IMG/VR virus record: IMGVR_UViG_3300021599_001461
Span: 1-27,991 of that record
Length of the DNA stretch: 27,991 nucleotides
Origin: a virus
Strand: one strand, 5' to 3'
The notes beneath the pieces were generated by a model. It was not told the DNA's origin. It worked only from the letters and a program-made list of their open reading frames with translations, and did not search any database. Position 1 is the stretch's first letter, and each line of letters starts with the position of its first letter. Shown piece by piece: positions 2,731-17,485 of this stretch. The position numbers and the translations under genes are program-made.

Positions 2731-3953
2731 CGTACATCAATGGCGGGTTGACCTTGGACAAAGATAGTGTCTACGACTTCTTCCAGACGACGCTGGGTTT
2801 TCTTGCCGTAGTTCTTGAAGACGGGCACGGTGACGAACCCAGTAGGCTTTCGGTACATGGCGAAGTTTCCTGCCTCAATCTTACCACAAGCAACGTCGCT
2901 AGCGTCATCCTTGTTAAGACGGATCACACGCCCGATGGTCTGTGCCATTTCCACAATTGGCAGGTTACGGAGCAGAATGGTGTGAGTCAGACCGTGAACA
3001 TTGATACCTTCAGACAGAATACTGTAGTGGAAGATGATGAACTTACGATCAGGATCTTGACCCCAAGAATTGAAAGTGTCGAAGAAAGTCTCACGATCAA
3101 CCTTGGTTTGATTAACGTAAGCACCGAACTTGCTGGTGATGTGAAGAACATCAAAACCACGCTCAGCGAGGTCTGAGAGGACGCTGGTGCTTGATAGCAT
3201 CTGCCACAAGACTTTGCTGCTAGGAGCAGCCACAAGCACCTTCTGGGCGTTCCTAGTGTCCAGTCCGTCGATCATGTCGATGAGGGTGCTGGCGTCGTTG
3301 TCGGCAGCGGTGAGACCTTTCTGCCGTTCATAATCAACCTCATGAATCTGAATGGTAGGAGGCAGAATGTTGCCTTGCTCAACCAGCTCAGGAGCAGAAA
3401 TATTAGAAATAATCTGACCAAACACAATCTTGTTGTTCATGCCAGTGCCAAGCGAGGAACGGCGATGCTTGGGAGTAGCAGTGAAATAGTAGTAGTTGGT
3501 GGCGTTACAGTTAGCTACGGAGTCAAAGAAATCAGTACGAGTGGCATTGTGTGCCTCATCGTAATAAGCAATGTCAATATTGATTTCAGACTCATTGACC
3601 CGACGAAGCGAGTTGTATGTGGTAAAGATAAGTTTGTGATTATTAACAATCTCATCCCAAGCAGCAATCACTTTCGGATTCGTGGTGCTTTTATGATGCG
3701 TTTCTCCACTGTGAACGTGAATAACGTTAGCATTATCAATAAACTCAAGAAACTCACTAGATAATTGCTCCGCTAGAAGGATACGAGGGGCACAAACAAC
3801 AATAGTAAGGGGGGTGCTAGATTCGTTCATACGACGAATAGCATCATAAATCATAATGAGAGTTTTGCCAGCACCAGTGGGAGCGATGATCTGCCCAAAC
3901 TGGTGCTTTTTCATGGCAGCAAGACTCTGCTCTTGTTGGGGGCGGAGTTTCAT
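2727..3953 (-). CDS. SF2 DNA helicase/ATPase (ResIII/DEAH type, UvsW-like)
   Basis: Counting from the ATG at 3953 the protein has 408 residues and the full SF2 motif set: RPQQ near 4-7, Walker A APTGAGKT at 24-31, YYDEAHN with DEAH at 132-135 (motif II), TATP at 158-161 (motif III), SEGIN at 314-318 (motif V) and QTIGRVIR at 338-345 (motif VI). This is an ATP-driven translocase or helicase of the group that includes type III restriction Res subunits and T4 UvsW. No nuclease domain is fused to it. A longer reading begins at a TTG (4004), but that codon coincides with a -35-like box, and the helicase core begins right after the ATG, so I prefer the ATG. There is no clear Shine-Dalgarno. Its stop overlaps the HNH start by 4 bases. 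Base composition is visibly richer in GC than in the genes to the right. Confidence 0.88.
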   Translation of the reverse strand: MKLRPQQEQSLAAMKKHQFGQIIAPTGAGKTLIMIYDAIRRMNESSTPLTIVVCAPRILLAEQLSSEFLEFIDNANVIHVHSGETHHKSTTNPKVIAAWDEIVNNHKLIFTTYNSLRRVNESEINIDIAYYDEAHNATRTDFFDSVANCNATNYYYFTATPKHRRSSLGTGMNNKIVFGQIISNISAPELVEQGNILPPTIQIHEVDYERQKGLTAADNDASTLIDMIDGLDTRNAQKVLVAAPSSKVLWQMLSSTSVLSDLAERGFDVLHITSKFGAYVNQTKVDRETFFDTFNSWGQDPDRKFIIFHYSILSEGINVHGLTHTILLRNLPIVEMAQTIGRVIRLNKDDASDVACGKIEAGNFAMYRKPTGFVTVPVFKNYGKKTQRRLEEVVDTIFVQGQPAIDVR

Positions 3954-3975
3954 GGCAAATGAATTCAATGAAGAT

Positions 3976-4004
3976 AGTATGACACAAAAAGATGGGAGCG
4001 TCAA
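3976..4004 (-). promoter_or_regulatory. Putative sigma70-like promoter for the helicase/HNH/methylase genes
   Basis: On the minus strand TTGACG (4004-3999) is followed after 17 bases by CATACT (3981-3976); an alternative -10 is TACTAT at 3979-3974. Start of transcription near 3969 would give a leader of about 16 bases before the ATG at 3953. The match to the -35 box is good and to the -10 box moderate (4 of 6). It lies in the only sizeable gap in the window. Confidence 0.45.
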
Positions 4005-4009
4005 GCCCC

Positions 4010-4035
4010 CTGTGCCAGTATTATATTTGGCACAG
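4010..4035 (-). terminator. Perfect hairpin after the 306-aa gene; possible terminator or mRNA-stability element
   Basis: CTGTGCCA at 4010-4017 and TGGCACAG at 4028-4035 form a perfect 8-bp stem with a 10-base loop. It begins 6 bases after the stop of the gene at 4041-4961. On the minus strand it is followed by a G run, not a T tract, so it is not a classical Rho-independent terminator. It could slow 3' exonucleases or end transcription in another way before the promoter-like boxes just downstream. Confidence 0.45.
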
Positions 4036-4040
4036 TATAT

Positions 4041-4961
4041 TCAAACTAAATTTCTTTTCTCAAATATATCGTACATTGGATGATTTTGTTTTTCAGAAAC
4101 ATTTTCAAATTCTTCAATTACAATGTTTTTGGCAATAATATCAATCAAATTTCCATCACCATCAATTGAATATTCGAATTCTAATTTAGTCTCTTCTGGT
4201 ATAACTTCTTTCATGTAAGCTACCATTTCATTGTCAATTAATCCATTATCTAGTAAAACATTTACTACTATGTCAGTTTGTGGCTGATTTTTTATTCTAA
4301 TTGGTATACATTCAGAAGAATCAAACATAGTTTTCCCAGAAATTCTACCATATCTAAATGATCTCACGGTATACTGTAAAGCTATATTATAACTGATTTG
4401 ATTATTTGTGGAATTAATGTATACAGTTGGCATTACATTATTGATTTTGGTCGAAGCAACACAAAGTTTATTTGATAATTCGGAATGGTTCAACATAATT
4501 GAAGGATCATGTTGAAAGTAGAGTCCAGTGGCATTACAATCAGGATCATATGTTACTGAATTGATACCAGCCGCCACAACAGCATCACCAACATAATCAA
4601 ATATTCTTTGTCTACAAAGGTCTAAATTAGAAATTTCTAATGTATGAATAAAATGATTCCATTCACCAGAATCAATGAAAAAAGGCAATTTGATTGGATT
4701 GATTGCTCTATATTCTTTAATAATATTGTCTCGGTGAGTTATTTCTAGATATTTTTTATCATCTTCTAAAATTTCAGCAGCATATTGTAATCTGTAATAA
4801 AAAAATAATTGAAATTTATTCTTAACTTCTTCACTGATTTCTGGTTTGTAATTACTATCAAACACAGAAGTATATCTCCAAGGCATTATTGAAGAAGTAT
4901 CCAAATATTTTTTATGAACTAAACTATAGTTGTTTATTTCAGTAAATTTATCAGAAAACAT
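4041..4961 (-). CDS. Hypothetical 306-aa protein, last gene of the fibre-accessory string
   Basis: The frame runs from ATG at 4961, 1 base after the preceding stop, to a stop 6 bases before the hairpin. The sequence is AT-rich and looks fully coding. The N-terminus (MFSDKFTEINNYSLVHKKYL) is not a signal peptide and there is no membrane segment. The middle has helical charged stretches (RLQYAAEILEDDKKYLEITH, about residues 57-76). The later part is beta-like, with an Asn-rich section (TVYINSTNNQISYNIALQYT, about 179-198) and an acidic end (KLEFEYSIDGDGNLIDIIAK). I do not recognise a family. Its position behind tail-fibre, chaperone and oxygenase genes suggests a minor virion or assembly protein, but that rests on context only. 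Confidence 0.7.
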   Translation of the reverse strand: MFSDKFTEINNYSLVHKKYLDTSSIMPWRYTSVFDSNYKPEISEEVKNKFQLFFYYRLQYAAEILEDDKKYLEITHRDNIIKEYRAINPIKLPFFIDSGEWNHFIHTLEISNLDLCRQRIFDYVGDAVVAAGINSVTYDPDCNATGLYFQHDPSIMLNHSELSNKLCVASTKINNVMPTVYINSTNNQISYNIALQYTVRSFRYGRISGKTMFDSSECIPIRIKNQPQTDIVVNVLLDNGLIDNEMVAYMKEVIPEETKLEFEYSIDGDGNLIDIIAKNIVIEEFENVSEKQNHPMYDIFEKRNLV

Positions 4962-4962
4962 T

Positions 4963-5307
4963 TTAGTTACTTGCTACAACTTGTCCTTGGGCATTAAAAA
5001 CTTTATAGTATACATAAAGTTCTGGATCACATTTTTCGGCTGATTCTGGGAAACTATCTTCACAAAATTCAATTGCTTCTTCGACATCATCAATTTCAAT
5101 TACAGAAAATTCACATTGATCCATTGTTGTGTATACATCTAATGGTAGTGAATTTTTGTATATCTCTTTTGACTGCTGAATTTTTTGTTCGTCGGCGCTA
5201 TTATTCCACCCGTAGGATCTAATAAAAATTACTGGCTTATTAAGCATGGTAACATACTTAGCTACCATGTCATCAAAGTAAATACAGTTGTATTTTGAAA
5301 TTATCAT
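4963..5307 (-). CDS. Hypothetical 114-aa acidic protein
   Basis: Starts at ATG 5307, 1 base after the stop of the prolyl-hydroxylase-like gene, and ends 1 base before the next start. The protein begins MIISKYNCIYFDDMVAKYVT and has an acidic centre (CEFSVIEIDDVEEAIEFCED, about residues 65-84). It ends with a beta-strand-like stretch, YVYYKVFNAQGQVVASN. Three of its four cysteines lie between residues 65 and 92 (CEF, FCED, KCDPE), which is notable for a small cytoplasmic protein and could bind a metal, though there is no recognised motif. It has no signal peptide. The family is not identified; co-transcription with the oxygenases is very likely from the spacing. Confidence 0.7.
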   Translation of the reverse strand: MIISKYNCIYFDDMVAKYVTMLNKPVIFIRSYGWNNSADEQKIQQSKEIYKNSLPLDVYTTMDQCEFSVIEIDDVEEAIEFCEDSFPESAEKCDPELYVYYKVFNAQGQVVASN

Positions 5308-5308
5308 T

Positions 5309-5830
5309 TTACTCCTTTAAGTATAATTTCCAAGCTATAGTGACTCTAAGATCAGTAAACTTTCTAGTTGTTTGTTCAGCATAATGAAACATTCTACCTG
5401 GGAAAAGAACTCCTTTGTTTGGTTCTGGCAATTCATAATGCTGCTCATTTTTATTTAATATATAAACAGTTTTGCCAGACCAATCAACTCTCCAATTTTT
5501 TACGGCATAAAATAAAAATGTCCTAGCATTTTCGGAATACCCATCTTGATGAGGTTCTCCTTGAGTTCCGAACATATGCCCATTAGCATATACTCGTTCT
5601 AGATCAAACGTTTTATTTGTTTTTTCTTGTATAATATTTAGTAGATAGTCTGTAAAGAATGGTTCATCATTTAAATTCATAACCCAAAATGGTGTGGTTG
5701 GTTTAGAATTATTAGAACCATGTCCAAACGCCCATTGAGGTCTATTCACATAGTCCATTATTTTCCAATAGTCTTCTACGGAAAAAATATTTTGATAAGA
5801 TACAATTTCATCTCTACTAAAAGTTTCCAT
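5309..5830 (-). CDS. 2-oxoglutarate/Fe(II) oxygenase, prolyl-4-hydroxylase-like
   Basis: The 173-aa protein is about one minimal double-stranded beta-helix domain. The iron triad is visible: EPHQDGYS gives H94-x-D96, and GRMFHYAE gives H149. R162 in DLRVTIAWKL is placed to bind the 2-oxoglutarate 5-carboxylate. The spacing H94...H149...R162 fits small prolyl-4-hydroxylase-like enzymes. The reaction would couple oxidative decarboxylation of 2-oxoglutarate to succinate with hydroxylation of a substrate, possibly a proline or another protein side chain. There is no signal peptide, so it would act in the infected cell cytoplasm. Its 5' end overlaps the PiuC-type gene by 14 bases. Similar enzymes are common in cyanophages, and their substrates are mostly unknown; fibre proteins are an attractive guess from context. 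Confidence 0.85.
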   Translation of the reverse strand: METFSRDEIVSYQNIFSVEDYWKIMDYVNRPQWAFGHGSNNSKPTTPFWVMNLNDEPFFTDYLLNIIQEKTNKTFDLERVYANGHMFGTQGEPHQDGYSENARTFLFYAVKNWRVDWSGKTVYILNKNEQHYELPEPNKGVLFPGRMFHYAEQTTRKFTDLRVTIAWKLYLKE

Positions 5831-6473
5831 ACTGCCTCAACATATTAATTCTAAGTTGTTCTAAACTCAATACTTTGGTATTATCTACTTTATCATTCAA
5901 AAGTTCTTTGTTGATTTTACCTAGATCGAATATACAGTTTCTAATAAATTCGTCTTTGACTAATGATTCCAGCCATGAAATAGAAACTAATCGGTTTCCT
6001 GTTTTAACAGGAGCAACTTTATGTAACATTCCAGTAGAATATATCAGGGCTTTTCCTGCCTGTAATTTGTATTGTTCTTCTTTGCCATCTCTAATTAAAA
6101 TTAATTCGCCACCATCATATTCATCTGGATTATTTAAAAATATTGTCATACTGTAGTGAGTTAAAACACTACCTATTTCTATTTCATCAATATGCCAATC
6201 ATAAAAACCACCCGTTTCGTAGTTTACGATGACAGGTGGTGTTATTTTTTTAGTTGATAATAAAGAAGAAAAAGTAATATTGTTAGAGATTGCTCTAGAT
6301 AAAATTTCGTATACTTTTTTGTACTCTAAAGTATTTTGATCAACCACAGCAGATACTTTAACGTCAGTGTTTTCTCCAGTGGAGAGTTTTCCTGGTTTAT
6401 ATGTTGCTGTATTTAAAATAGATTGAATTGTTGTAATATCATGATCTTGTAATAATTCAATTTCTAAAATCAT
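5817..6473 (-). CDS. 2-oxoglutarate/Fe(II) oxygenase, PiuC/PKHD type
   Basis: The 218-aa protein resembles the PKHD-type hydroxylase family (PiuC, about 225 aa). Visible motifs in order are YDWHIDE (H94-x-D96), TIFLNNPDEYDGGELILI (the family signature with DGGEL), AGKALIYSTGMLHKVAPV (H151) and GNRLVSISWLES (R161, 2-oxoglutarate binding). The C-terminal 45 residues form a charged helical tail, as in the family. Cellular PiuC proteins are linked to iron uptake; phage versions are usually annotated only as oxygenases. The gene starts inside the stop of the chaperone gene (ATGA, 4-base overlap) and overlaps the next oxygenase by 14 bases, so the three are translationally linked. Family call is strong, substrate unknown. 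Confidence 0.9.
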   Translation of the reverse strand: MILEIELLQDHDITTIQSILNTATYKPGKLSTGENTDVKVSAVVDQNTLEYKKVYEILSRAISNNITFSSLLSTKKITPPVIVNYETGGFYDWHIDEIEIGSVLTHYSMTIFLNNPDEYDGGELILIRDGKEEQYKLQAGKALIYSTGMLHKVAPVKTGNRLVSISWLESLVKDEFIRNCIFDLGKINKELLNDKVDNTKVLSLEQLRINMLRQYGNF

Positions 6474-7378
6474 CCCTCAGTTTCCTCTTCAAATTTATCA
6501 ATATCATATTCTGGATAGATGTCACTAACATCAAATTCTTTAAGAATATTAAGAATATTTTTCTTAACTCTAATTCTAGCTTCAATGTAACCTTTAGTGT
6601 AATTCAATGCTCTAACAGCATTAGCACTAATAAAATCAGTAGATGCTTCAACATCATATTTAACCCATTGTTCTGGGGTTGAAAGATATTCTACTTCGTT
6701 GCCTTCTTCATCTTTTCCTTCTGGATACATTTTAAAATATAGTTTTGGATCAACTGGATATTTTAAATCATACAGATACTTTAGAAATTCTAGTGGATTT
6801 TCAAAATTTTCTGGTCTTTGAATTACTTCTTGGCGAAGAGTATTTCTCCACTTCATCCACATGTCTTTTTCGCCTGGATAAGTATCAACTACGTCGGGAA
6901 GAACTCTCCAATCAGATGTTGCCAACATAGAATTTTTCTCAGCAATCTTTTTTAGCAATCTTCTTTCATAGAAAAGAGATTCTTGCCCAACTTCTTTTAC
7001 TTCACTGATAGCTAAAAACTTTTTAACATCAGCATTAAGAATAATAAATGCTTCAATTCTTTCAACTAATTGATCAATTTTATCTTGAGGAACATTTTTT
7101 AGGTTGTATGTTTGCCAATAATTTGTTTTGCTGGCAAAATCATATTTTAATTTTCTTCTCTGACAAAAATATTCTCCATTGTTATATTTAATAAAATACT
7201 GAAGTTGATCATTTTCAGTATGCCAAAATGGATCAATATTATCAAAGAATTTTACCAGTAAATTTTCGTCGATGGTTTTGACACTAGCAACAGCAGACGT
7301 TAAATCATCTGATGGAGTAAAAATATACTTATTGAGAAAATCAATCTCAATATTTGGTTTTAACATTTGTTGTTCCAT
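6470..7378 (-). CDS. Tail-fibre assembly chaperone-like protein
   Basis: The 302-aa protein has a central motif typical of phage tail-fibre assembly proteins. SDWRVLPDV (about 155-163) is followed after about ten residues by WMKWRNTLR (174-182), matching the DWxxLPD...WxxYRxxLR pattern with Trp for Tyr. After that comes EFLKYLYDLKYPVDPKLYFK (about 197-216) and a helical C-terminus ending in acidic EEETEG. The N-terminal 150 residues are extended and lack a motif I know. Such proteins help fold or trimerise fibres, often those encoded just upstream; here the 935-aa fibre is two genes upstream. The gene begins 2 bases after the stop of the HxE oxygenase gene. The role is inferred from motif and place. 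Confidence 0.7.
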   Translation of the reverse strand: MEQQMLKPNIEIDFLNKYIFTPSDDLTSAVASVKTIDENLLVKFFDNIDPFWHTENDQLQYFIKYNNGEYFCQRRKLKYDFASKTNYWQTYNLKNVPQDKIDQLVERIEAFIILNADVKKFLAISEVKEVGQESLFYERRLLKKIAEKNSMLATSDWRVLPDVVDTYPGEKDMWMKWRNTLRQEVIQRPENFENPLEFLKYLYDLKYPVDPKLYFKMYPEGKDEEGNEVEYLSTPEQWVKYDVEASTDFISANAVRALNYTKGYIEARIRVKKNILNILKEFDVSDIYPEYDIDKFEEETEG

Positions 7379-7380
7379 AT

Positions 7381-8055
7381 TTAAACTCTAGCAGTTTTTA
7401 TATACCATCCCGTCAAAATGTATTTATTCGTCGTAAATATTGTATTTCCTTTGTGTACATGAGTCATACCAGCAGGAAAGATGACTACAGTTCCTCTGGT
7501 TGGTTTAATTCTTCTACGCTGATATAAAAATTCTGTTTCTCCTTCTCCGTCAGGAACATCATTTAAATAAATCATCCAAGTTAATTCCCTGGCAGCATAG
7601 TCGGGAGCAGAATTTTCATAATGCCACAAATGATATCCACCTTCTGGTTCAGTCTTCTGAAATTTAATATCAGAAGAAATCATAGCAAGTTTACTTAATT
7701 GAGAAAAATTATCAATATAATGTAAAACACATGATTTTAAAAATTGATTTACTTGATAACTGTAAGTATCGTTTGTATAATTTAATAGAATAGAAGTATC
7801 TTTTCTATTTAAATTACCTCTATATTGAACATCGCCGTTTAATACCAACGCTTCTGATTGTTTTTCTGGTACTGGACTAGATGGTTCAATATAATCTGCT
7901 GTATTATTAATAGTATGTTCAAAAAATTGAATGAGTTGATCACAAAAATTTGCTGGAACAAAATTTTCCCAGACACCGATAAAATCTGTTAATTCAAATT
8001 TAGTCAGCTTTGGATCTCTCATCAATTCGAGAGGTCTGTATGGTTGTATAGTCAT
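7381..8055 (-). CDS. 2-oxoglutarate/Fe(II) oxygenase with an HxE...H triad
   Basis: The 224-aa protein has the oxygenase beta-helix strands in order: EGGYHLWHYENSA (about 138-150), ELTWMIYLNDVPDGEGETEF (157-176), KPTRGTVVIFPAGMTHVHKG (184-203), KYILTGWYIK (211-220). The metal ligands are most likely H145, E147 and H199. Glu replaces the usual Asp, and K211 replaces the usual 2-oxoglutarate-binding Arg. The motif LNDVPDGEGETEF matches the prolyl-hydroxylase family strand. The enzyme should be active in the cytoplasm; no signal peptide is seen. It sits directly behind the 935-aa fibre gene (6-base gap, with AAGG as a weak ribosome-binding site) and before the chaperone gene, so fibre modification is a reasonable but unproven role. 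Confidence 0.85.
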   Translation of the reverse strand: MTIQPYRPLELMRDPKLTKFELTDFIGVWENFVPANFCDQLIQFFEHTINNTADYIEPSSPVPEKQSEALVLNGDVQYRGNLNRKDTSILLNYTNDTYSYQVNQFLKSCVLHYIDNFSQLSKLAMISSDIKFQKTEPEGGYHLWHYENSAPDYAARELTWMIYLNDVPDGEGETEFLYQRRRIKPTRGTVVIFPAGMTHVHKGNTIFTTNKYILTGWYIKTARV

Positions 8056-8061
8056 AATATT

Positions 8062-10869
8062 TTAGTATGCCTTTATTATATATTTTACTTTGTGGAACGG
8101 TGTTACGAGAGGAACAGTCTTTGTTGGTTGTAATTCTACCACAGGAATTGGTTTAATACTAGAGTTAAAAGTAAATGTAGCTGGGTTCAATTCAAGAAGA
8201 AGTTCGCTTTGATTAAAAGTAACTTCTAGAGAAGTATTTGCTGAGGGGAGAGATCCAGCATACTTAGTTCCCACACCATTAAGATTACCATAAGTAAAGT
8301 CAGTCTGTGGATTAGTGGCAGCATCAAGACTCATGAGGTGTGAGTGTGTTTTTAATGTTCCTGGGGAAGCATATGGGGCGATTCTCATCGTTGATGCTTG
8401 TGTATCAATAACACCAGCATCGTTAGCAGCAGCTGATCCAGTATCATATAGTCTACTGCCAGCAAGATTTTGTAATGTAGAAATTGGGCTAGCCCACCAG
8501 TTACCAAATTGAATCAACTCACTGGAATCAAGGGGAAGTATACTATCAAATTGAAGACCAGTTTTTTGTACTTCAGAAATAAAAGTTGAACCAGCAATAG
8601 ATCTAAACTGAGAAATAACCGAAGATTGTCCAGCAGAGTCAGCAACTCCTCTACCGCTATAAGAACTTGCGGAACCACTAAAGCCATACATAGCTCTATT
8701 CCCCCAAGGAATTAATGGTTCTCCAGCATCAGACTCTACAGTAGAAGACCAATAAACGTGATCATGTGCTGGAACATTTACACTAGTTTCGCCAACTGGA
8801 CCAAGAATAGCATTAATTGATCCAGTAATATTAAATGTCAATTCTCCAGTAAGTTGTTCAGTACCAATCGTTTTAACTGTTCCTAAACTAAAGAATGGAC
8901 TTTCTGTTCCACCAGTATATACCTGCTCCAAAGGCAACGGACCAGCAATACCAGATCTATCAATATACCAATATCCGCCAGTAGATCCAACTTGATTGAT
9001 GCTACCAGAGTCAACAGGTAAGAAAGGAGAACCACCAAAATTAGCATCTAGTGCTCCAATACCACATATTTTTTTATTTCTGTAATCAGGAACATTAAAT
9101 GTACCACTATATGTAAAAGTAGTCTCATCATAATCTCCACTACCTCCATAAGTATTTCCAATTACATTCCATAGATCTGGATATTGAGCAACAGCATAAG
9201 AAGACCCATCACATTCCAAGAATCCAGGGAATCTTTCTTCAATATCTCCATATTCATCAACAACATTTTCTTTTAATACCTGAACAACAGTTCCAATTGA
9301 AAGACCATCATACTTTTTAGTTTTAATACTATACCAAGTACCAAGGTTTGATGGCGGAGGTGGAGCAACAGCATATGTTGTTACTGACCATGTAAATGGA
9401 GTAGCATCTCCAATAGTTACTGTGGTGCTTGAACTAGCACTTAAAGCGTTTGGTGTTTTTAAAACTAAGAAAATTAACTGGTTTACGAGTGGATCAAAAG
9501 TTCTTGGACCAGCAACAGGAGTATCATAATCAATAGAAATTAGTGCTCCATTAGTAGCATTAATGGTAATTGGAACATTAAAATCTGTTAGACCTACGAC
9601 AGCACTAGAAATAAATGTATCTGGTACTCTATTTGTTAGGTTAGGAGGAGCAGTAAATGATGGTGTAGAATCTGGAGTTAAATATGTATCAATACTCCAC
9701 GTAGTAATAATTCTTGTTCCGACTTTAATTGAGGTTTCTACATTACCACCAAAAGTTTCTGATGATTTATTGTATAGTGTGATAACATCACCATTTCGTA
9801 CTGTAGTAGGAAATATTCCAATAGATCCATCGTTAATTCTAATTCTTGGTTCTGTGCCACTAGTTGAAACTAATTCAACTGGAACAGAAACGCCAGCACT
9901 CAATCCACCAATTCCACCCACAGGTCTAGTTTGAGATTGTACAGTTACTCCTGGAGCTACATTGGTTATGTTTGGAAAACTAAAATTGGTAGGAGTTGTA
10001 GATAATGCTGCTCCTGTTTCAATCGTCCACGTACTAACACCAATTCCTTCAGCAATATCAACAGCAATTGGCAATTGTGTATTGGGATTTGTTGGTGTTG
10101 TTGCCAATAATTGTAAATATTGACCATTAGAAATATTTGCTGAAGAAGCAAAAGTTACACCAGATAGAACATCATAGCCTTCAGCATTTGTTTGTGTTGT
10201 ATTTGTGCTAGAAACTCCAACTAAAGTGCCAAAACCAGCACTAACTTGACCAGGAGCAGTTAGTCCTTGAACCACAACTATATTACTGTATGCTGGAGAA
10301 TTTAAAGGAAGACCAGTCAATGGTGTAAATACTGGAGCTGGATTTGGTTTATTGATTGGTGTTTGTTTTGTAGTTAATTCCCATGTTTCTTGAGCTAATC
10401 CAACAGTTATACTAATTCTAAGAGTTTGTGCTGGAGAATCAAATGTTCTCCCTCTTAATTGAATTGTATCTCCATTTTGTACAGTGGTATTTTGTGGCAG
10501 TAATACAAAAGGACCACCATTAATACTCACAGAATATCTGTTGATATCAGGAAAATCATTTGCTGAAATGGATACAGGAACTACGGTTGTTGGTGTTAAT
10601 CCAGAAACAACAATAATATTTTCTCCTGGTCTGGTTCCATCTCCATACGTATAAACAGTATCTAATTCAGCATTATTTACTGGCTGTAAGGGGAATGGAT
10701 CTGGTTCAAAATCTTCTGGTATTGTCGTGATAAACCAGAATTGAGTTAGGAGACCTACCTGAATAGTAACTGTTTCTGTAGTATCCCAAGTGTCAGGAGC
10801 TTTATACTGAAATTGTATAATATCGCCTTCTCTTACAAAAAGCGGAGTATCGGAAAATTGATATGCCAT
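8062..10869 (-). CDS. Tail fibre protein with Ig-like repeats and a tail-collar domain
   Basis: The 935-aa protein has two parts. Residues 1 to about 500 hold about five beta-sandwich repeats marked by GDxIxL...T..I.VG...WxIxT (for example NGDTIQLRGR...ISITVGLAQETWELTT). A proline linker, VAPPPPSNL, lies near 500-508. The second part starts with a phage tail-collar domain (IGTVVQVLKENV near 526, FPGFLECDGSSY near 546-557, NVPDYRNKKICGIG to about 610). It then runs as Ser/Gly/Thr-rich beta sequence to the terminal VKYIIKAY. The ending resembles those of the two collar proteins upstream (YIIKY, YIIRAY). It likely forms a trimeric fibre or adhesin on the baseplate or tail. The start has a strong AGGAGA 9 bases upstream, lying within the end of the previous gene. 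Confidence 0.85.
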   Translation of the reverse strand: MAYQFSDTPLFVREGDIIQFQYKAPDTWDTTETVTIQVGLLTQFWFITTIPEDFEPDPFPLQPVNNAELDTVYTYGDGTRPGENIIVVSGLTPTTVVPVSISANDFPDINRYSVSINGGPFVLLPQNTTVQNGDTIQLRGRTFDSPAQTLRISITVGLAQETWELTTKQTPINKPNPAPVFTPLTGLPLNSPAYSNIVVVQGLTAPGQVSAGFGTLVGVSSTNTTQTNAEGYDVLSGVTFASSANISNGQYLQLLATTPTNPNTQLPIAVDIAEGIGVSTWTIETGAALSTTPTNFSFPNITNVAPGVTVQSQTRPVGGIGGLSAGVSVPVELVSTSGTEPRIRINDGSIGIFPTTVRNGDVITLYNKSSETFGGNVETSIKVGTRIITTWSIDTYLTPDSTPSFTAPPNLTNRVPDTFISSAVVGLTDFNVPITINATNGALISIDYDTPVAGPRTFDPLVNQLIFLVLKTPNALSASSSTTVTIGDATPFTWSVTTYAVAPPPPSNLGTWYSIKTKKYDGLSIGTVVQVLKENVVDEYGDIEERFPGFLECDGSSYAVAQYPDLWNVIGNTYGGSGDYDETTFTYSGTFNVPDYRNKKICGIGALDANFGGSPFLPVDSGSINQVGSTGGYWYIDRSGIAGPLPLEQVYTGGTESPFFSLGTVKTIGTEQLTGELTFNITGSINAILGPVGETSVNVPAHDHVYWSSTVESDAGEPLIPWGNRAMYGFSGSASSYSGRGVADSAGQSSVISQFRSIAGSTFISEVQKTGLQFDSILPLDSSELIQFGNWWASPISTLQNLAGSRLYDTGSAAANDAGVIDTQASTMRIAPYASPGTLKTHSHLMSLDAATNPQTDFTYGNLNGVGTKYAGSLPSANTSLEVTFNQSELLLELNPATFTFNSSIKPIPVVELQPTKTVPLVTPFHKVKYIIKAY

Positions 10870-10872
10870 CTA

Positions 10873-11380
10873 CTATATTCTCCTTAATTGATCCCAGCTA
10901 TCTGTTTCATTTATTTCAACTAAAATAGGTTTATCTGCTTTTATTTCCACAGGTATATCAATATCTCCAAGTACAATTTTATAACTTGTTATTGCTTCGT
11001 CGGGAGTGTAAATTGGCTCCTGATCTTTGAATAGATCTTCAGATTCTGGTACTAAAAAGTTGTCGGGGGTTTCATCAATATTTATAGGGATAATTATTTG
11101 CTTAGTTTCTTGCCCCCCATTTCCTGTAGCAACAATCGTGTAAGTAACACTAAATGGTCCAAAATCAGTGTAAGGAATCACAGTTGTTACCAACCCATTT
11201 ACTGAAGAACCAGTTGGTAAATTAACAGCAGTTCCAATTACAGTACTACCCCTATAATTATAAGTTGGAGTTAAAATTAATGAAATATCTGTATTGGTAG
11301 CAGTATATGATAAATTGCCATTTTGACCATAATTTAATGATTCTGGACCACTTAGCTCAACCGTTGGTGGTTGATAAACA
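10873..11380 (-). repeat. Conserved C-terminal module, copy 3 of 3
   Basis: This coding stretch (about 168 codons, from VYQPPTVELSGPES to the stop) is the same module that ends the genes at 12309 and 13979. Shared blocks include NGGQETKQIIIPINIDETPDNFL and IPVEIKADKPILVEIN. At DNA level, 11033-11055 is identical to 14139-14161 (23 bases). Confidence 0.85.
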
Positions 11381-12306
11381 GTCAAAGTTATAGAATCAGA
11401 ATCAGATCCACCTAGTCCAGTGACAAAGATATTATATGTTGTTGTTTCTGTTGGACATATTTGAGTAAATCCATTGATATTAACAGAACCAATACCTGGA
11501 GTTACAGTTGCCGAAGTAGCATCTCCTGTAGTTACCCATCTTAAAACAGTACATTGTCCTCGAATAATGCTGGTGTTGTCCAAAAATAGCGTTGTCGATG
11601 GCGGAACATATACGGTAATTGTAACTATAGCAGAAGTTGTTCCTCCAGGACCAGATGCCGATAAAGTATATGTGGTAGTGCTTTGAGGACTTACAACTAT
11701 ACTACCAGAAGAATTAACAGCTCCAATCCCCTGATTAATATTAATACTGTCAATAACGCCAGTTACATTCCACGACAACGTAGAAGTTTGTCCTCGTACT
11801 ATTGCTGTAGGAGAGCCAGAAAATGTAATAGATGGAGGATCATACAATACAATAAATGTTAAAATACATTCATAAAAAGCATTAACATGAAACAAACCAT
11901 CTGCCGTAGTAAAATCTAATCTAAATGTGTTTACAGAACCTTTTTCCAAAAAATAAGGAGACGGTCTAATTTCTGTTTGAATAACAGGACCAGTAGCACA
12001 TCCCTGATTCTGATCTTGAGAAGTAGCAGTTTTAATTTGTTGTCCGTTCAAGGTCAGAGTCATTCTTTCAAATCCACTATCCTGAAGTTCTCCCTGACCC
12101 GTCAAATTAACACCCAAAAGAACCCTTTCTGTAGTAGAAATTGTTGCTGTAGCTACTCCAGACTGAGTTCCTGAATTGGATCCACCACAATTAGCAGAAT
12201 TTTGTACGTTAAATCTAATAGTTCTTCCTTGATCAGAAATTACCCATCCACCAGCTCCAGCAACTAATCCAGATTGTGTAGTATTCCAGGAAAGATTAAA
12301 TGCCAT
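10873..12306 (-). CDS. Ig-like repeat adhesin paralogue 3 (unique N-terminal domain)
   Basis: The 477-aa protein has a unique N-terminal domain of about 155 residues (MAFNLSWNTTQSGLVAGAGG at the start; four cysteines at NCGG, GCATG and YECIL; a jelly-roll-like strand pattern). Two Ig-like repeats follow with the signature LxWxVTG...I..GIG.VN.SG...V.P..TTTYTLSASGPGG. A third, more divergent Ig-like unit begins YQPPTVELSGPESLNYGQ. The last about 70 residues (DETPDNFLVPESEDLFKDQE to the end) nearly match those of the two upstream neighbours. It is probably a virion adhesin or fibre-tip protein. The start is set by AGGAG within the end of the previous gene. There is no signal peptide, as expected for a virion part. 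Confidence 0.8.
   Translation of the reverse strand: MAFNLSWNTTQSGLVAGAGGWVISDQGRTIRFNVQNSANCGGSNSGTQSGVATATISTTERVLLGVNLTGQGELQDSGFERMTLTLNGQQIKTATSQDQNQGCATGPVIQTEIRPSPYFLEKGSVNTFRLDFTTADGLFHVNAFYECILTFIVLYDPPSITFSGSPTAIVRGQTSTLSWNVTGVIDSININQGIGAVNSSGSIVVSPQSTTTYTLSASGPGGTTSAIVTITVYVPPSTTLFLDNTSIIRGQCTVLRWVTTGDATSATVTPGIGSVNINGFTQICPTETTTYNIFVTGLGGSDSDSITLTVYQPPTVELSGPESLNYGQNGNLSYTATNTDISLILTPTYNYRGSTVIGTAVNLPTGSSVNGLVTTVIPYTDFGPFSVTYTIVATGNGGQETKQIIIPINIDETPDNFLVPESEDLFKDQEPIYTPDEAITSYKIVLGDIDIPVEIKADKPILVEINETDSWDQLRRI
10879..10884 (-). promoter_or_regulatory. Ribosome-binding site AGGAGA inside the last codons of the upstream gene
   Basis: The final Arg-Arg-Ile codons of the 477-aa gene are AGG AGA ATA, so the C-terminus of one protein carries the Shine-Dalgarno for the 935-aa fibre gene, with a 9-base spacer to the ATG at 10869. 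It fixes that start and keeps the two genes linked. Confidence 0.75.
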
Positions 12307-12308
12307 TA

Positions 12309-12822
12309 TTATATACTCCTAATTTGATCCCAATTATCATCATTATTAATTTCAACTAAAATTGGCTTGTCGGCTTTCACTTCAACAGGAATATCTACAC
12401 CATCAACAACTATTTCATATGACAATATTGTTTGATCTGGTGTGACAACTGGATCTTGTGATTTATAAGCTTCTTCCGTTTCTGGAATTAAAAAATTATC
12501 TGGTGTTTCATCAATATTAATTGGTATTATGATTTGCCTTGTTTCTTGACCGCCATTGCCAGTTGCTGTTATTGTATAACTTACACTATATGGACCATAA
12601 TCATTATATGGTATATTTGTTTGATAAGAATTGGATAAACTAGCACCCAAAGGTAAATTAGTATTAAACATAGATCCAGATACATCTCCATTTTTGTAGC
12701 TATAAACTGGTTCCACAGTAAAGCTAATATCAACATTAGTAGCTTCGTAAGTTATCACTCCTTGCTGACCATAATTAAGGGATTGTGGTCCTGATATTTG
12801 TAAAGTAGGGGGTTGATATACA
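12309..12822 (-). repeat. Conserved C-terminal module, copy 2 of 3
   Basis: About 170 codons from VYQPPTLQISGPQS to the stop. It carries the same blocks as the flanking copies: NGGQETRQIIIPINIDETPDNF and VEVKADKPILVEIN, then a short terminus ending in NWDQIRSI. It is more diverged in DNA from copies 1 and 3 than those two are from each other. Confidence 0.85.
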
Positions 12823-13976
12823 ATTAATGTAACTTCTTTTGTATCTGTACCACCCAATCCAGATGCCGTAATAGTATATGTTATTGTTTCTTCTGGACAT
12901 ATTTGACGCTGACCACTAATATTAACCGATCCAATACCAGGAGAAATTGTTACTTGACCAACATCTCCCGTGACAGACCATCTTAATGTACTACATCCAC
13001 CCTTAATAACAGAAGTATCATCAATAGATACAGAAATTCTTGGTTCCAGAAGTATTGTTAAAAATGCTTTCCCACTCTGTCCGTTATCTGCTGTAGCTCC
13101 TCCCCGAGAGCCACCAGAGCCAATAGTTAATTGATGTGAAGTTCCTGGTCTATATGTACTACTTTGAACAAGCTGTGCTCTAGTTATATTTGCTTCAATA
13201 AATCCAGCCCCTCCCCCACCTCTTCCAACTAAAGGTGTTCTATTTCCCGTTGTGGTGAATGAAAAACATCTAACATAGCTATTATTTCCTGCCCTACAAA
13301 ACCAAATTCTAAATCCAAATCTGGTTTTATAATCTATACCATAAACATAAAAGGGACCAGCAGTACCGCCAGCAGCAGCCTGTTGACAAACACTAAAAAC
13401 ATTTATGCTGTAATTGGCATCATCATAAGGAGCAACAAAATTAACACTATAATGCTTATAAGCAAGACTAGTATTACAAGGAGCGCCTGGAGCATATTGT
13501 GATTCAAATCCAACGTAAATATCTGGACTGCTTTGAGTAACTATATGTGTATCAGTATCGTCATTAAAAATATGGTAAACATTAGATGTATAACTAACTT
13601 GAAGAGGAGTTCCATATCCACCATTAACAGAAGAATAACCAGAAATAGTTCCTCCAGTTCCTCCAGATGATAATTGACCACTTGATCCATTAACTATGTT
13701 AACAGAAGATCCAAGAGAACTCCAAGCAAAAGATTCACTTGCCGAACCGCCAGCTCCTCCCTGGTTTTTTCCTCCAATACCACCTCCCTGACCACCATTA
13801 GCATTCAAACCAATAAAAGAAGATGTTCCTCCATTGGTGCCAGCAGTAGACACAAGAGTATATTGCTCAACAAATTCACCTCCTCCGCCACCACCATATA
13901 ATTTCAAGCTTAGATTAGCAGCATCTTCTGGTATTGTAACTTGTTGTGAAGAATATATTGTTAAATTAATTGGCAT
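12309..13976 (-). CDS. Glycine-rich adhesin paralogue 2
   Basis: The 555-aa protein begins MPINLTIYSSQQVTIPEDA, a short beta lead of the type that precedes phage glycine-rich domains. It then has poly-Gly stretches (LYGGGGGGEF near 27-36; NGGQGGGIGGKNQGGAGGSA near 60-79) and a final VGRGGGGAGFIEAN near 250. About residues 1-308 thus form a glycine-rich domain like those of phage adhesins, with an inserted Cys-containing part (residues 120-240). One Ig-like repeat follows (ISVSIDDTSVIKGGCSTLRW onward), then the divergent Ig unit and the C-terminal module common to its neighbours. Glycine-rich motifs in T4-like receptor-binding proteins form loops that touch the host surface, so this is a good candidate for receptor recognition. 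It starts 2 bases after the upstream stop. Confidence 0.8.
   Translation of the reverse strand: MPINLTIYSSQQVTIPEDAANLSLKLYGGGGGGEFVEQYTLVSTAGTNGGTSSFIGLNANGGQGGGIGGKNQGGAGGSASESFAWSSLGSSVNIVNGSSGQLSSGGTGGTISGYSSVNGGYGTPLQVSYTSNVYHIFNDDTDTHIVTQSSPDIYVGFESQYAPGAPCNTSLAYKHYSVNFVAPYDDANYSINVFSVCQQAAAGGTAGPFYVYGIDYKTRFGFRIWFCRAGNNSYVRCFSFTTTGNRTPLVGRGGGGAGFIEANITRAQLVQSSTYRPGTSHQLTIGSGGSRGGATADNGQSGKAFLTILLEPRISVSIDDTSVIKGGCSTLRWSVTGDVGQVTISPGIGSVNISGQRQICPEETITYTITASGLGGTDTKEVTLIVYQPPTLQISGPQSLNYGQQGVITYEATNVDISFTVEPVYSYKNGDVSGSMFNTNLPLGASLSNSYQTNIPYNDYGPYSVSYTITATGNGGQETRQIIIPINIDETPDNFLIPETEEAYKSQDPVVTPDQTILSYEIVVDGVDIPVEVKADKPILVEINNDDNWDQIRSI
12316..12320 (-). promoter_or_regulatory. Ribosome-binding site AGGAG inside the last codons of the upstream gene
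   Basis: The final Arg-Ser-Ile codons of the 555-aa gene read AGG AGT ATA, placing AGGAG 9 bases before the ATG at 12306. This repeats the arrangement seen before the 935-aa fibre gene and supports that start codon. Confidence 0.75.
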
Positions 13977-13978
13977 TA

Positions 13979-14487
13979 TTAGAGTTCCCTAATTTGTTTC
14001 CAAGAGTCATCATTATTTACTTCAATTAATATTGGTTTATCAGCTTTAATTTCTACTGGCACATCTATATCATCTATAATAATTTCATATGATGTTAATG
14101 AAACATTTGGCGTATAAATTGGTTGTTGATCTTTAAACAGATCTTCAGATTCTGGTACTAAGAAATTTTCTGGAGTTTCGTCTACATTAATTGGTATTGT
14201 AATTTGTTTAGATTCTTGACCACCATTTCCCATAGCAACAATAATGTATGACACTGAAAATGGTCCATTATCATTATATGGTATTTGTGTTTGTAAAGTT
14301 CCGTTCGATGGATTTCCTGCTGGCAAAGAAATCACATCACCAAGAACAGTACCAGTTTTGTATGTGTAAGATGGTATTATTTCTAGCTTAATATCAGCAT
14401 AAGTACTTTCATAAGTCAATGTACCCTGTTGATTATAATTTAATGTTTCTGGACCAGACAAATCAACTGTAGGAGGTTGATATACCA
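13979..14487 (-). repeat. Conserved C-terminal module, copy 1 of 3
   Basis: About 169 codons from VYQPPTVDLSGPET to the stop, matching the ends of the two downstream genes. The blocks NGGQESKQITIPINVDETPE and VEIKADKPILIEVN are shared. A 23-base DNA identity with copy 3 (14139-14161 with 11033-11055) points to recent duplication or gene conversion. Confidence 0.85.
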
Positions 14488-15349
14488 CTAAAGTTACAGA
14501 ATCGTAAGCATCATTACATACTCCATCAACATATATTTCGTATGTTGTAGTTTCTGTTGGAGAAATTGTGGTTAATCCATTAATATTTACGGATCCTATT
14601 CCTGGAGAAATTGATGCTGCTGTAGAATCTCCACCAGTAACCCATCTCAATGTAGTAGATTGCCCCCTAATAATTGAAGAAGAATCTGTAGTTAAATTTG
14701 TATTAGATGGTTGCTTTACTATTAATGTGGCTGTAGCAGATGATGATCCTCCTTCCCCAGAAGCTGTTAAAGTATATGTAGTAGAACTAGAAGGAGAAAC
14801 TGTTCTAGATCCAGAAGTTCCTACAGATCCTATTCCCTGATCAATTGAAACACTACTTACTATTCCAGAAACAGACCAAGATAATGTAGCAGAAGAACCA
14901 CTACAAAATGATGTCGGTGATACGGAAAATGATATAGATGGTGCTGGAGGTGGAGGTGGAGCATCGATAGTTATTGCAATACCATAAGGATTTGATGTAA
15001 AAACATTTCCATTTGGTTGATTATAAACTGATAGCGAAACAGTATAGGTGCCTCTATTATAAAATCTAGTGGTAGATGAAGACCCACTAAATCCAGCTAC
15101 AGAACAATTTACTCCACCAACATTTAAAGTACCGCTATCATCTGCTGCAGCCGTAATTGTATAATTTCCTGAATTTGGAAAATAAACAGAATAACTTCTA
15201 TTAAATGTGCTGCCATTATAAGCACTTCCAGTCCCAGTAGTTGCCGAAGTAAATCTAACGGCATAAGTGTTCATGAAAGAACTCCATGCCCCATTAGTGT
15301 AACCACCAAAACCGCCAGAATTATCTCTAGTATTCCAAATTATTGCCAT
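13979..15349 (-). CDS. Ig-like repeat adhesin paralogue 1 (PA14/lectin-like N-terminus)
   Basis: The 456-aa protein starts MAIIWNTRDNSGGFGGYTNG. Its first about 125 residues look like a beta-sandwich of PA14/lectin type (YSVYFPNSGNYTITAAADDS, GTLNVGGVNC, then GTYTVSLSVYNQPNG); that fold is inferred from the DDSGxLxVGG pattern. A proline linker, DAPPPPPAPS near 127-137, joins it to two Ig-like repeats (LSWSVSGIVSSVSIDQGIGS and LRWVTGGDSTAASISPGIGS), then the shared third Ig unit and the C-terminal module. The ATG lies 2 bases after the upstream stop. It is likely a virion adhesin that binds a host surface glycan or protein. The N-terminal function is uncertain; the domain order and paralogy are clear. 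Confidence 0.8.
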   Translation of the reverse strand: MAIIWNTRDNSGGFGGYTNGAWSSFMNTYAVRFTSATTGTGSAYNGSTFNRSYSVYFPNSGNYTITAAADDSGTLNVGGVNCSVAGFSGSSSTTRFYNRGTYTVSLSVYNQPNGNVFTSNPYGIAITIDAPPPPPAPSISFSVSPTSFCSGSSATLSWSVSGIVSSVSIDQGIGSVGTSGSRTVSPSSSTTYTLTASGEGGSSSATATLIVKQPSNTNLTTDSSSIIRGQSTTLRWVTGGDSTAASISPGIGSVNINGLTTISPTETTTYEIYVDGVCNDAYDSVTLVVYQPPTVDLSGPETLNYNQQGTLTYESTYADIKLEIIPSYTYKTGTVLGDVISLPAGNPSNGTLQTQIPYNDNGPFSVSYIIVAMGNGGQESKQITIPINVDETPENFLVPESEDLFKDQQPIYTPNVSLTSYEIIIDDIDVPVEIKADKPILIEVNNDDSWKQIREL

Positions 15350-15351
15350 GA

Positions 15352-16236
15352 TCAGTATTTAATGATGTACTCAACCAAGATGAATGGAGTAACAGCCGTA
15401 TCTAGTTTTCTATCTCTACTAAAATCAACATCAACATATGATGATACCTGATCTGCTGGAATATCAAAATTTCCGAAAGAATATCTAAAATTATGAGTAT
15501 AAATTGCTGGTTTACTTAATCTATGAGAGTGTATTGATTCAGCTGTTGTATTTGTTTGAGTGATGTCAAGATACATACCAGCTCCACTATTTCCACTAAG
15601 TTCTCCATTATCTTTACCAGATCCAACAGCGCCAGCTGGTTCTCCAGCAGCATGATTTGTAGTATAATTTAAATATATTGCTGTGGAATTATGAGCGTGA
15701 CCCTGAAAATTATTAATATCTAAAGCAGCAGAAGCACTATTTCTTGGCATATCGTATGTAGAATTAGAATTCAAATCAATATTTGTTTGAGCTTGACCTC
15801 TAAAATTGCCAATATATCCTATTTCAATTCTATTTCCTACATTACTGAAAGCAGATATTTCTGGTCCAACTCTAGGTTCGCCAGTAGTATCTACAGTACC
15901 ATTAACATAATCACCTGATCCTCTACTGGGTACAATAACCTTAGATCCCAAATCTGGTAATTGGAATGTTCCTAAATCTCCTGTGGTTGAGTCAGCATTT
16001 CTAAGTAGTGCCCCTTCTTTAGCAAATCTGGATCCATCTCCAACTCCAAGAATTTGTGACAAAGATAGATAATCTCGTGCTTCTAAAATACTACCATCAC
16101 ATCGTAAAAATCCCGCTGGCAAAATATCATTAAATACAGCAGAAGATGGATCAGATCCTAATCCAGCACTAGTGTGAATTTGTATGGATCCAACATAACC
16201 ACCAAATTTAGATCTTTCTCTAGCGTAATTTGCCAT
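15352..16236 (-). CDS. Tail-collar domain fibre protein (294 aa)
   Basis: The N-terminus has a collar-type fold: YVGSIQIHTSAG (about 14-25), LPAGFLRCDGSILEARDYLS (39-58), FQLPDLGSKVIVPSR about 92-106. The pattern P.GFL.CDG..., then LPDL...V.. is the tail-collar signature, seen also in the 415-aa and 935-aa proteins. The C-terminal half is Ser/Thr/Asn-rich beta sequence with histidines (FQGHAHNS, ESIHSHRLS), which could bind metal as in fibre tips of other phages. It ends VTPFILVEYIIKY. It is probably a short fibre or baseplate-linked fibre. The start is 1 base after the previous stop, with AGGG about 10 bases upstream. Confidence 0.8.
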   Translation of the reverse strand: MANYARERSKFGGYVGSIQIHTSAGLGSDPSSAVFNDILPAGFLRCDGSILEARDYLSLSQILGVGDGSRFAKEGALLRNADSTTGDLGTFQLPDLGSKVIVPSRGSGDYVNGTVDTTGEPRVGPEISAFSNVGNRIEIGYIGNFRGQAQTNIDLNSNSTYDMPRNSASAALDINNFQGHAHNSTAIYLNYTTNHAAGEPAGAVGSGKDNGELSGNSGAGMYLDITQTNTTAESIHSHRLSKPAIYTHNFRYSFGNFDIPADQVSSYVDVDFSRDRKLDTAVTPFILVEYIIKY

Positions 16237-16237
16237 T

Positions 16238-17485
16238 TTAGTATGCCCTGATGATGTATATACAAGTTAATCCTGGCTGTGATGTATTAAAGTTAATCTG
16301 TAAAGCTGCTTGATTAGATTGATTATCTAGACTTAAATTAGCATTAGGAGCTTCCACATTAACAGTAAGCGTAGTATTTGGTCTTAAAGTTCCTCTAACA
16401 AATTCTACGTCAAATTCATCATGAACGTGAGGTAGTATTACATCATTTGTACCAGGACTTTGAGTTATTTGATTAAAATCAAAGGCTGCTGGGGTAAGTA
16501 ATGTATCAAACGTGTTTGCTTGGGTAATAGAATTAGTAATATCGGGATAATAATTTTTTGCTCCCGCTGGCAAATTAAGACTAACGCCCTGTAAACCATA
16601 TGGTATAGGAGTAGCTTGATCTACTCTAGGATCAGTCATAAATGCCTGTATTGGGCTTAATTTTACATTAAATGGGGTGTAATTAATTGGAGGATTTTCT
16701 GCATTTATTCCAGCAACAACTCTTCCAGGACTTCCTGTTCCAAATCCATTTTCAGCACCTCTTGTTTGAGGATCTCTTATACCAATAGAAACTCCAGTTT
16801 CAGTGTCAGAAGAACCTCCATACAAAATATCTCCGTCATCGTAGTCAATATATGAATAAAATTGATATGCAAATGAAGCATAAGGAATTACTCCAGCTCC
16901 AGGTCTTTGAGGATTAGTATAGCTAATAGATTCGTATCTTCCAGGATGATTATGTGGTTTGATATGATCTCTACCCAATTTTCTTGGACTAATATATACA
17001 GTTTTACTTATTCCTTCGCCTCCACCGATAGTATTACCAGAAGCTCTTCCAGAATATCCTGATCTATCATTAAGAGTAAATACGACATCAGTAGTAATAT
17101 CGTTATAAATTGTTTTAACGCCATTGTCTGTATTGGGACCAATTAATGGCGTAACAGCAGCAGCAGCTTTTGGATCTAGATCTTGTGTTTCTCCAGTTCC
17201 TCCCGCTCCAAAATAAGAAGTTTCTATATCAATAAGAGTTTTATTAGTTAAATTAGGAAGAACTATATTACCAGAATAATTCGGAAAACTTCCTGCAAAT
17301 GATGATGGACCATTATTATAAGTATCCCCAATTGCTCTAGACAAAAGTGGATAACTTGCTGCTGATATTGGAGTTCCATCACAAAGAATCCAGCCTTTGG
17401 GAATGTTGGAAACACCCCCAGTCCAAGGCATGATTGTGCCGATAGCGGCAGCTTTAGCTGTTCTTGTCTGCTGATAAAAAGCCAT
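16238..17485 (-). CDS. Tail-collar domain fibre protein (415 aa)
   Basis: The collar domain occupies about residues 14-90: AIGTIMPWTGGVSNIPKGWI, LCDGTPISAASYPLLSRAIG, then NIVLPNLTNKTLIDIE. This is the usual IG.I.pw.g....P.GW..CDG...s...YP.L...iG.ty motif of phage tail-collar proteins. The rest is beta-rich with His pairs (RDHIKPHNHPGRYE, VILPHVHDEFDVEF) and ends TCIYIIRAY. Histidine pairs of this kind in the T4 long-tail-fibre tip bind iron; whether this one does is a guess. The ATG is 1 base after the stop of the giant protein gene, so the two are translated together. It likely forms a trimeric fibre or a baseplate component. Confidence 0.85.
   Translation of the reverse strand: MAFYQQTRTAKAAAIGTIMPWTGGVSNIPKGWILCDGTPISAASYPLLSRAIGDTYNNGPSSFAGSFPNYSGNIVLPNLTNKTLIDIETSYFGAGGTGETQDLDPKAAAAVTPLIGPNTDNGVKTIYNDITTDVVFTLNDRSGYSGRASGNTIGGGEGISKTVYISPRKLGRDHIKPHNHPGRYESISYTNPQRPGAGVIPYASFAYQFYSYIDYDDGDILYGGSSDTETGVSIGIRDPQTRGAENGFGTGSPGRVVAGINAENPPINYTPFNVKLSPIQAFMTDPRVDQATPIPYGLQGVSLNLPAGAKNYYPDITNSITQANTFDTLLTPAAFDFNQITQSPGTNDVILPHVHDEFDVEFVRGTLRPNTTLTVNVEAPNANLSLDNQSNQAALQINFNTSQPGLTCIYIIRAY

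Follow-up and report, generated by a model that had tools for sequence, protein, structure and literature searches.

What can a phage make of three adjacent genes whose products begin with unrelated domains and end in the same sequence? The question is raised by the 27,991-base virus record IMGVR_UViG_3300021599_001461 from IMG/VR, which we refer to as the window and which was analyzed over its whole length. Its gene order is that of the Kyanoviridae, and it is a fragment of a T4-like cyanophage genome. Three open reading frames (ORFs) stand in tandem on its minus strand, separated by 2-nucleotide gaps:

13979..15349, minus strand: array gene A, an ORF of 456 amino acids with a PA14-like head (head cluster 4) and the shared core; matches PHROG 2155, virion structural protein, E=4e-119
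12309..13976, minus strand: array gene B, an ORF of 555 amino acids with a glycine-rich head (cluster 2); matches PHROG 9770 over its full length, E=2e-157
10873..12306, minus strand: array gene C, an ORF of 477 amino acids with an orphan head (cluster 8); matches PHROG 2155 at E=2e-130, over residues 142-477 only

All three proteins match the PHROG 2155, 9770, and 29022 profiles over the conserved region (E from 2e-157 to 5e-52). Our answer, which we hold at a probability of roughly 0.6, is that the genes form a tandem array of paralogous virion proteins with swappable heads, whose tails would dock on the adjacent short tail fiber by completing a split repeat unit and whose heads would bind the cell surface.

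The original prediction described three tandem paralogues with a constant C-terminal part and unrelated N-terminal heads, and sequence comparison agrees. Over the last ~225 amino acids identity is 62-65% (gene C against gene A, 65%, E=2e-98; gene C against gene B, 62%, E=3e-93), and BLAST finds no similarity among the three N-terminal parts except in the immunoglobulin (Ig) region. The sharing was therefore correctly seen, although its length had been put too low, at ~170 residues. The shared part consists of an Ig domain (~75 amino acids), a divergent Ig domain (~99 amino acids), and a 67-amino acid tail (DETPxNFL...KADKPIL(V/I)E...); genes A and C have an extra Ig-like repeat. From N- to C-terminus, an array protein comprises a head, one or two Ig-like spacers, the divergent Ig domain, and the 67-residue tail. 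In AlphaFold2 models, the Ig domains have a predicted local distance difference test (pLDDT) score above 93 and folds that match solved Ig chains (Z 9-11), and the tails have a pLDDT of ~50-75 with almost no secondary structure. As protein, the tails are conserved in all genomes, with invariant D and P and near-invariant V and I positions. A segment conserved yet predicted to be unfolded alone would have the look expected of a docking segment. The constant parts lie as follows:

13982..14182, minus strand: gene A tail, residues 390-456; homogenized within the genome, pLDDT ~50, hardly any secondary structure
12312..12512, minus strand: gene B tail, residues 489-555; homogenized within the genome, pLDDT 49-75
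10876..11076, minus strand: gene C tail, residues 411-477; homogenized, and resembling the first half of the neighboring fiber's repeat unit
11077..11838, minus strand: two Ig-like domains and the divergent Ig domain of gene C, assigned by sequence; Ig folds are predicted for the paralogues

Heads are exchanged between phages as cassettes, and the body and tail stay put. The clearest case involves the third gene of the window:

11839..12306, minus strand: gene C head, residues 1-156, a swapped cassette; the only stretch replaced relative to contig L027, with a right breakpoint (11838) common to contigs L029 and L030

L027, a 110-kb contig, aligns collinearly with the window over 17485-12301 (81.5%) and over 11839-6470 (86.5%); codons 2-156 of gene C are the only replaced stretch, and L027 carries a glycine-rich head there. 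At the same right-hand breakpoint, L029 and L030 carry a head with the motif DxSGSM. Each head recurs on other contigs (that of L027 on L028, that of gene C on L001 and L025), so a single misassembly is unlikely for either. Comparable replacements separate named phages. Two S-RIM44 genomes with flanks 97.6% and 98.9% identical have second array genes of 1461 and 2655 nucleotides with the last ~260 nucleotides in common, and two ACG-2014j isolates with flanks 93-95% identical share only the last ~205 nucleotides of theirs. S-H9-2 and S-RIM32 bear the DxSGSM head on the third-position core and a glycine-rich head on the first, whereas S-PM2 has the reverse; the third-position cores of all three phages cluster together in a tree. 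Swap breakpoints fall at the start codon and the head/Ig junction, or within the last ~70-90 codons. These direct replacements (relative to L027, L029, and L030, and within S-RIM44 and ACG-2014j) uphold the proposal of a cassette array with interchangeable heads.

The wider comparison drew on 16 cultured-phage records, 1 single-cell record, and 76 viral contigs. A tblastn search with the core matched 49 of 50,697 phage records, all of them cyanophages or marine relatives, mostly at three places per record and in some at four or six. Among viral contigs, a single-sequence search returned two near-identical contigs only; the alignment-based profile search found 316 that encode core relatives, of which 76 loci were kept. 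In the records examined, the array slot is fixed between a GC736-type Collar protein and a GC740-type short tail fiber, and is occupied in S-PM2, Syn1, S-H9-2, S-RIM32, S-CAM1, S-CAM3, S-CAM4, ACG-2014e/i/j, S-RIM44, and Sf-CH11/Sf-CH3. The carriers are viruses of both marine and freshwater cyanobacteria. In the annotated array records examined, the short tail fiber is encoded immediately after the array; the GC736-type protein is found in array-bearing records and also in some array-free ones. Relatives do not carry the same heads in a fixed order: arrays comprise 2-6 genes, usually spaced by -4 to +3 nucleotides, and vary in order and content. In ACG-2014h and S-H9-1, the two flanking genes are adjacent with no array between them, which makes the array dispensable in Kyanoviridae.

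Clustering of the first 100 residues sorted the heads into ~11 clusters, which occur in more than 20 orders; the cluster count is approximate given that clusters 1 and 2 are joined through glycine-rich sequence. Head types include two glycine-rich ones, the PA14-like type of gene A, DUF5648 (Pfam E=4e-11), a DUF4114-like type (E=3e-4, below the cut-off), and the DxSGSM type. The motif D-x-S-G-S-M, a DxSxS metal-site motif, is invariant in 10 aligned cluster-6 heads of relatives; the von Willebrand A (vWA) reading of these heads is one of motif only, and Pfam gave no vWA match at E up to 5. Transcription activator-like (TAL) effector repeats returned by a PDB profile search with the same heads were taken as chance. 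The gene C head is confined to the window and two near-identical contigs; the other two heads of the window have relatives:

14942..15349, minus strand: gene A head, residues 1-136; homologous heads in Sf-CH11 gene 2, S-RIM44 gene 2, and ACG-2014j gene 1
13050..13976, minus strand: gene B head, residues 1-309; confident fold in the model, most blocks >80; related heads in S-RIM32, S-CAM3, and ACG-2014e/i

The gene A head had been labeled PA14-like; the resemblance is there but weak, with a match to PF07691 at E=0.011 that falls below the Pfam cut-off (16 bits against 24), and a PDB profile search returned lectin chains at E=0.18 only. When whole models were used in fold searches, Ig chains came back; the Ig domains fill the lists, and the heads are hardly probed in this way. 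Two further variants were seen among relatives. Contigs L036 and L037 are 100% identical around the array and differ by a 237-nucleotide in-frame deletion in the PA14-like head of the second array gene (L036 7707-8879; L037 7470-8879), which is either standing head variation or an assembly difference. In S-CAM1 gene 2 (L014 12705-14849), a ~100-residue domain related to a segment of the Syn1 gene 2 head is inserted within the core.

If the heads come and go, what is held constant? Across 37 non-redundant loci, genes with different heads within one genome were compared with genes bearing the same head across genomes. Mean identity of the tail is 0.65 within genomes and 0.49 across them; the corresponding values are 0.34 and 0.31 for the divergent Ig domain and 0.52 and 0.47 for the Ig domain. 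Permuting genomes within head clusters gave z = 18.9 for the tail, 11.7 for the divergent Ig domain, and 10.6 for the Ig domain, and 0 of 2000 permutations reached the observed tail value. At several loci, the within-genome excess is present in the tail and absent from the divergent Ig domain. Tails are thus kept alike within a genome regardless of head. An initial reading in which all 225 residues of the core were constant gave way once the per-domain comparison singled out the tail as the strongly homogenized part. The common C-terminal anchor proposed earlier does behave as an attachment module, being homogenized, unstructured in the predicted monomer, and complementary to the fiber N-terminus; its extent is the last ~67 residues rather than a 170-residue half. 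Of 57 exact DNA matches of at least 20 nucleotides between genes of one array, 42 fall in the last 300 nucleotides, and because of this concentration the tail DNA is probably a recombination anchor. Each head sits between two copies of tail-coding DNA. With the tail DNA of the gene before it on one side and its own Ig/tail DNA on the other, a head could be swapped, added, or removed by homologous recombination between copies.

The candidate docking partner is the gene immediately downstream, whose product is built from a repeat of ~90 residues (320 units in 66 proteins, with four complete or nearly so in the window copy):

8062..10869, minus strand: short tail fiber with a Collar domain (GC740 type), proposed docking partner; PF07484 Collar E=6e-10, phrog_4924 short tail fiber protein
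10720..10869, minus strand: N-terminal half unit of the short tail fiber, repeat positions 47-90 only; hmmsearch i-E=1e-13, residues 6-49
9376..10629, minus strand: four further repeat copies in the short tail fiber, residues 81-167, 181-285, 298-395, and 410-498

In every array locus readable from the gene start, the fiber begins with a second half unit only (positions 43-48 to 90, from residues 2-9); the misses in the half-unit list are loci whose next ORF is a truncated array gene, not the fiber. In the two array-free phages, ACG-2014h and S-H9-1, the fiber has no starting half unit. The tail aligns to repeat positions 8-42, in the first half. Its profile scores 21.8 against the extended unit; 200 column shuffles average 9.0 and reach at most 15.2, and the reversed tail scores 8.0. 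The likeness is visible in the window itself, where ITSYKIVLGDIDIPVEIKADKPILVEIN in the gene C tail corresponds to ISSAVVGLTDFNVPITINATNGALISID in the last unit of the fiber. Among 25 genomes, tail divergence tracks that of the fiber N-terminal half unit (partial r 0.44) and of the fiber repeats (0.47) and not that of GC736 (-0.15); the Ig domains give values of 0.14-0.16.

Two relatives carry different constant ends in the same slot. Sf-FR1 (L024 30892-35854) has PA14-like and glycine-rich heads, and Sf-CH1b (L100 12876-19322) has array-like genes; in both, the constant C-terminal halves are unlike those of the window and alike within the genome. Lineage-specific constant modules therefore exist. 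In Sf-CH1b, two array-like proteins end at unit positions 79 and 80, and the collar protein starts with TTTWSVSTYA, the last strand of the unit. By these alignments, Sf-CH1b appears to be an independent case of a split unit, with a different constant half.

We propose with moderate confidence, from these sequence relationships, that the tail docks on the short tail fiber by completing a split unit. The tail would be the docking part, contributing the opening half of one beta-type repeat unit, and the second half would come from the N-terminal end of the adjacent fiber; because the one matches a first half and the other begins with a second half, docking would reconstitute a whole unit. Competition among different heads for these sites would follow, one virion may display several of them, and any protein ending in the tail would become a displayable adhesin. 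The heads presumably bind cell-surface molecules, which would be glycans or proteins of the host. The full scheme, a plug-and-socket display in which different adhesins compete for half sites and the tail DNA doubles as a recombination anchor, is tentative, and we place it somewhat short of even odds.

Several observations weigh against this proposal. The match between tail and repeat is barely detectable (hhalign probability 18-32%), and the co-divergence of tail and fiber could reflect shared phylogeny, which partial correlation does not fully remove. The Sf-FR1 fiber has the half unit, yet the constant C-terminal parts of that genome show no detectable first-half match; the notion that they are a divergent first half unit was tested and found unsupported. 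Two tails, or even three, occur in some chains, with one or two at internal positions (L015 9037-14406, L016 8797-14382, and L062 3-4229; the partial L062 chain has three complete cores, the others two), and a simple end-to-end joint needs no internal tail. As to function, no head of the window has a confirmed receptor-binding fold, with PA14 below the Pfam cut-off and the DxSGSM head of relatives unrecognized by Pfam. That the array proteins belong to the virion is indicated by record annotation.

The same facts can be read in other ways. One is that the proteins decorate the capsid like Hoc, as Ig strings anchored to the capsid by the C-terminus with variable heads outward. T4 Hoc does combine a C-terminal anchor with an Ig string (PMC10385173), so a C-terminal anchor is not unprecedented in T4-type phages. 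Hoc and the array have in common the string of Ig domains, the constant C-terminal anchor, and a variable outward part; PHROGs files the array families under 'head and packaging', and among the weak hits of a viral fold search are two models annotated as outer capsid. However, Hoc is a single gene in T4, and its capsid-binding domain is a folded beta-sheet/helix domain with an ESRNG loop, whereas the array comprises several genes in the tail-fiber cluster, with swapped heads and a predicted unfolded tail without ESRNG. The array genes also lie between collar fibers and near the tail assembly chaperone, and their tail complements the adjacent fiber, all of which makes capsid decoration unlikely. 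Membership in the Hoc family was rejected, given an hhalign match to the Hoc capsid-binding domain at E=0.63 over 6 columns and ESRNG in 0 of 267 tails.

A second reading reverses the polarity: the variable N-termini would attach to different baseplate or fiber sites, and the constant C-terminus with the short tail fiber would be the cell-facing end, as in the long fibers of T4, where the distal subunit follows the proximal one. T4 fiber proteins have a virion-proximal N-terminus, and C-to-N joints between successive fiber proteins are usual; the tail-fiber joint proposed here is likewise C-to-N. Wholesale head replacement between near-identical phages that keep their neighboring virion genes would nevertheless be odd for a part fitting a conserved baseplate, and head types vary in number and order, so that we regard reversed polarity as improbable. 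Phages with multiple receptor-binding proteins, such as CBA120 and the jumbo phage phiKp24, resemble the array in bringing several adhesins with a shared attachment part to one particle (for the array, as predicted from its genes). Their shared part is N-terminal, whereas that of the array is C-terminal.

The heads might also be adhesins for the environment, such as mucilage, particles, or polysaccharide gels, and not for an infection receptor. Phage proteins that carry Ig domains can bind mucus or epithelia (PMC13370021), and the array-free Kyanoviridae (ACG-2014h, S-H9-1) indicate that the array is not essential for infection in general. In a coevolution experiment with S-PM2d, by contrast, mutations arose in the flanking giant, collar, and short-tail-fiber genes, tying the cluster to host interaction; the tie is weak, as the accessible portion of that report names no mutation in the array genes themselves (PMC9910659). 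We consider a purely environmental role to have a small chance of being correct. Least probable is a merely recombination-prone hypervariable region of paralogues without a common docking function, in which gene conversion alone would keep the tails alike: the concentration of exact repeats in the tail DNA shows that conversion could suffice for homogenization, but the tails are conserved as protein across all genomes and the fiber half unit co-occurs with the array.

A tandem array with swappable heads that would dock on the adjacent fiber remains our preferred reading, and parts of it have been cataloged before. T4-GC 737, 738, 739, 1047, and 1048 (S-PM2, Syn1) and PHROGs 2155, 9770, and 29022 are the same genes in the same slot, annotated as virion structural or hypothetical. 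A host recognition cluster, described for pelagi- and cyanomyophages as a variable region with tail-fiber genes (PMC7029224), is the kind of region in which the array lies; that description covers the variable island as a whole and not cassette heads on a common tail. Among the open-access papers found, none describes the array, its exchange of heads, or a split-unit joint, which is not proof of novelty. Host recognition by T4-like cyanophages is poorly known. These phages lack g12, g34, g35, and g37 (PMC2984593), and the hosts that ACG-2014-type isolates infect do not track phage lineage (PMC5112629). A cassette array that trades heads between near-identical phages could account for host recognition evolving more quickly than other parts of the genome. 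Should the split-unit joint be real, it offers a simple physical rule by which unrelated heads share one socket, and a half unit at a fiber N-terminus becomes a sequence signature for similar systems in other phages.

The surroundings of the array are those of a tail-fiber cluster. On the minus strand, the window encodes a giant tail protein, two Collar proteins, the three array genes, and the Collar short tail fiber, followed by 2OG-Fe(II) oxygenases and a tail assembly chaperone:

16238..17485, minus strand: short tail fiber/Collar protein (GC735 type), upstream of the slot; Pfam and PHROG matches
15352..16236, minus strand: Collar protein (GC736 type), upstream flank of the slot; PF07484 E=4e-5, phrog_4714
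6470..7378, minus strand: tail assembly chaperone, downstream of the slot; phrog_4697 E=5e-90

The late-promoter motif ATAAATA has one match, within gene C, and none in the intergenic gaps; given the latter, the array genes are probably co-transcribed. An Rfam search of the window returned no element. The three Collar proteins (window 8062-17485) end alike in a Y-I-I-(K/R) type sequence (VKYIIKAY, VEYIIKY, CIYIIRAY), which may reflect a shared fold or a shared end for attachment. Three 2OG-Fe(II) oxygenase genes surround the tail assembly chaperone (window 5309-8055), directly downstream of the fibers and in the same layout in most records examined; their products might modify fiber proteins. 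Near window position 4000, the guanine-plus-cytosine fraction changes from 0.43-0.45 (1000-4000) to 0.29-0.31 (4000-8000), a step that coincides with the boundary of helicase, HNH-like, and DNA methylase genes.

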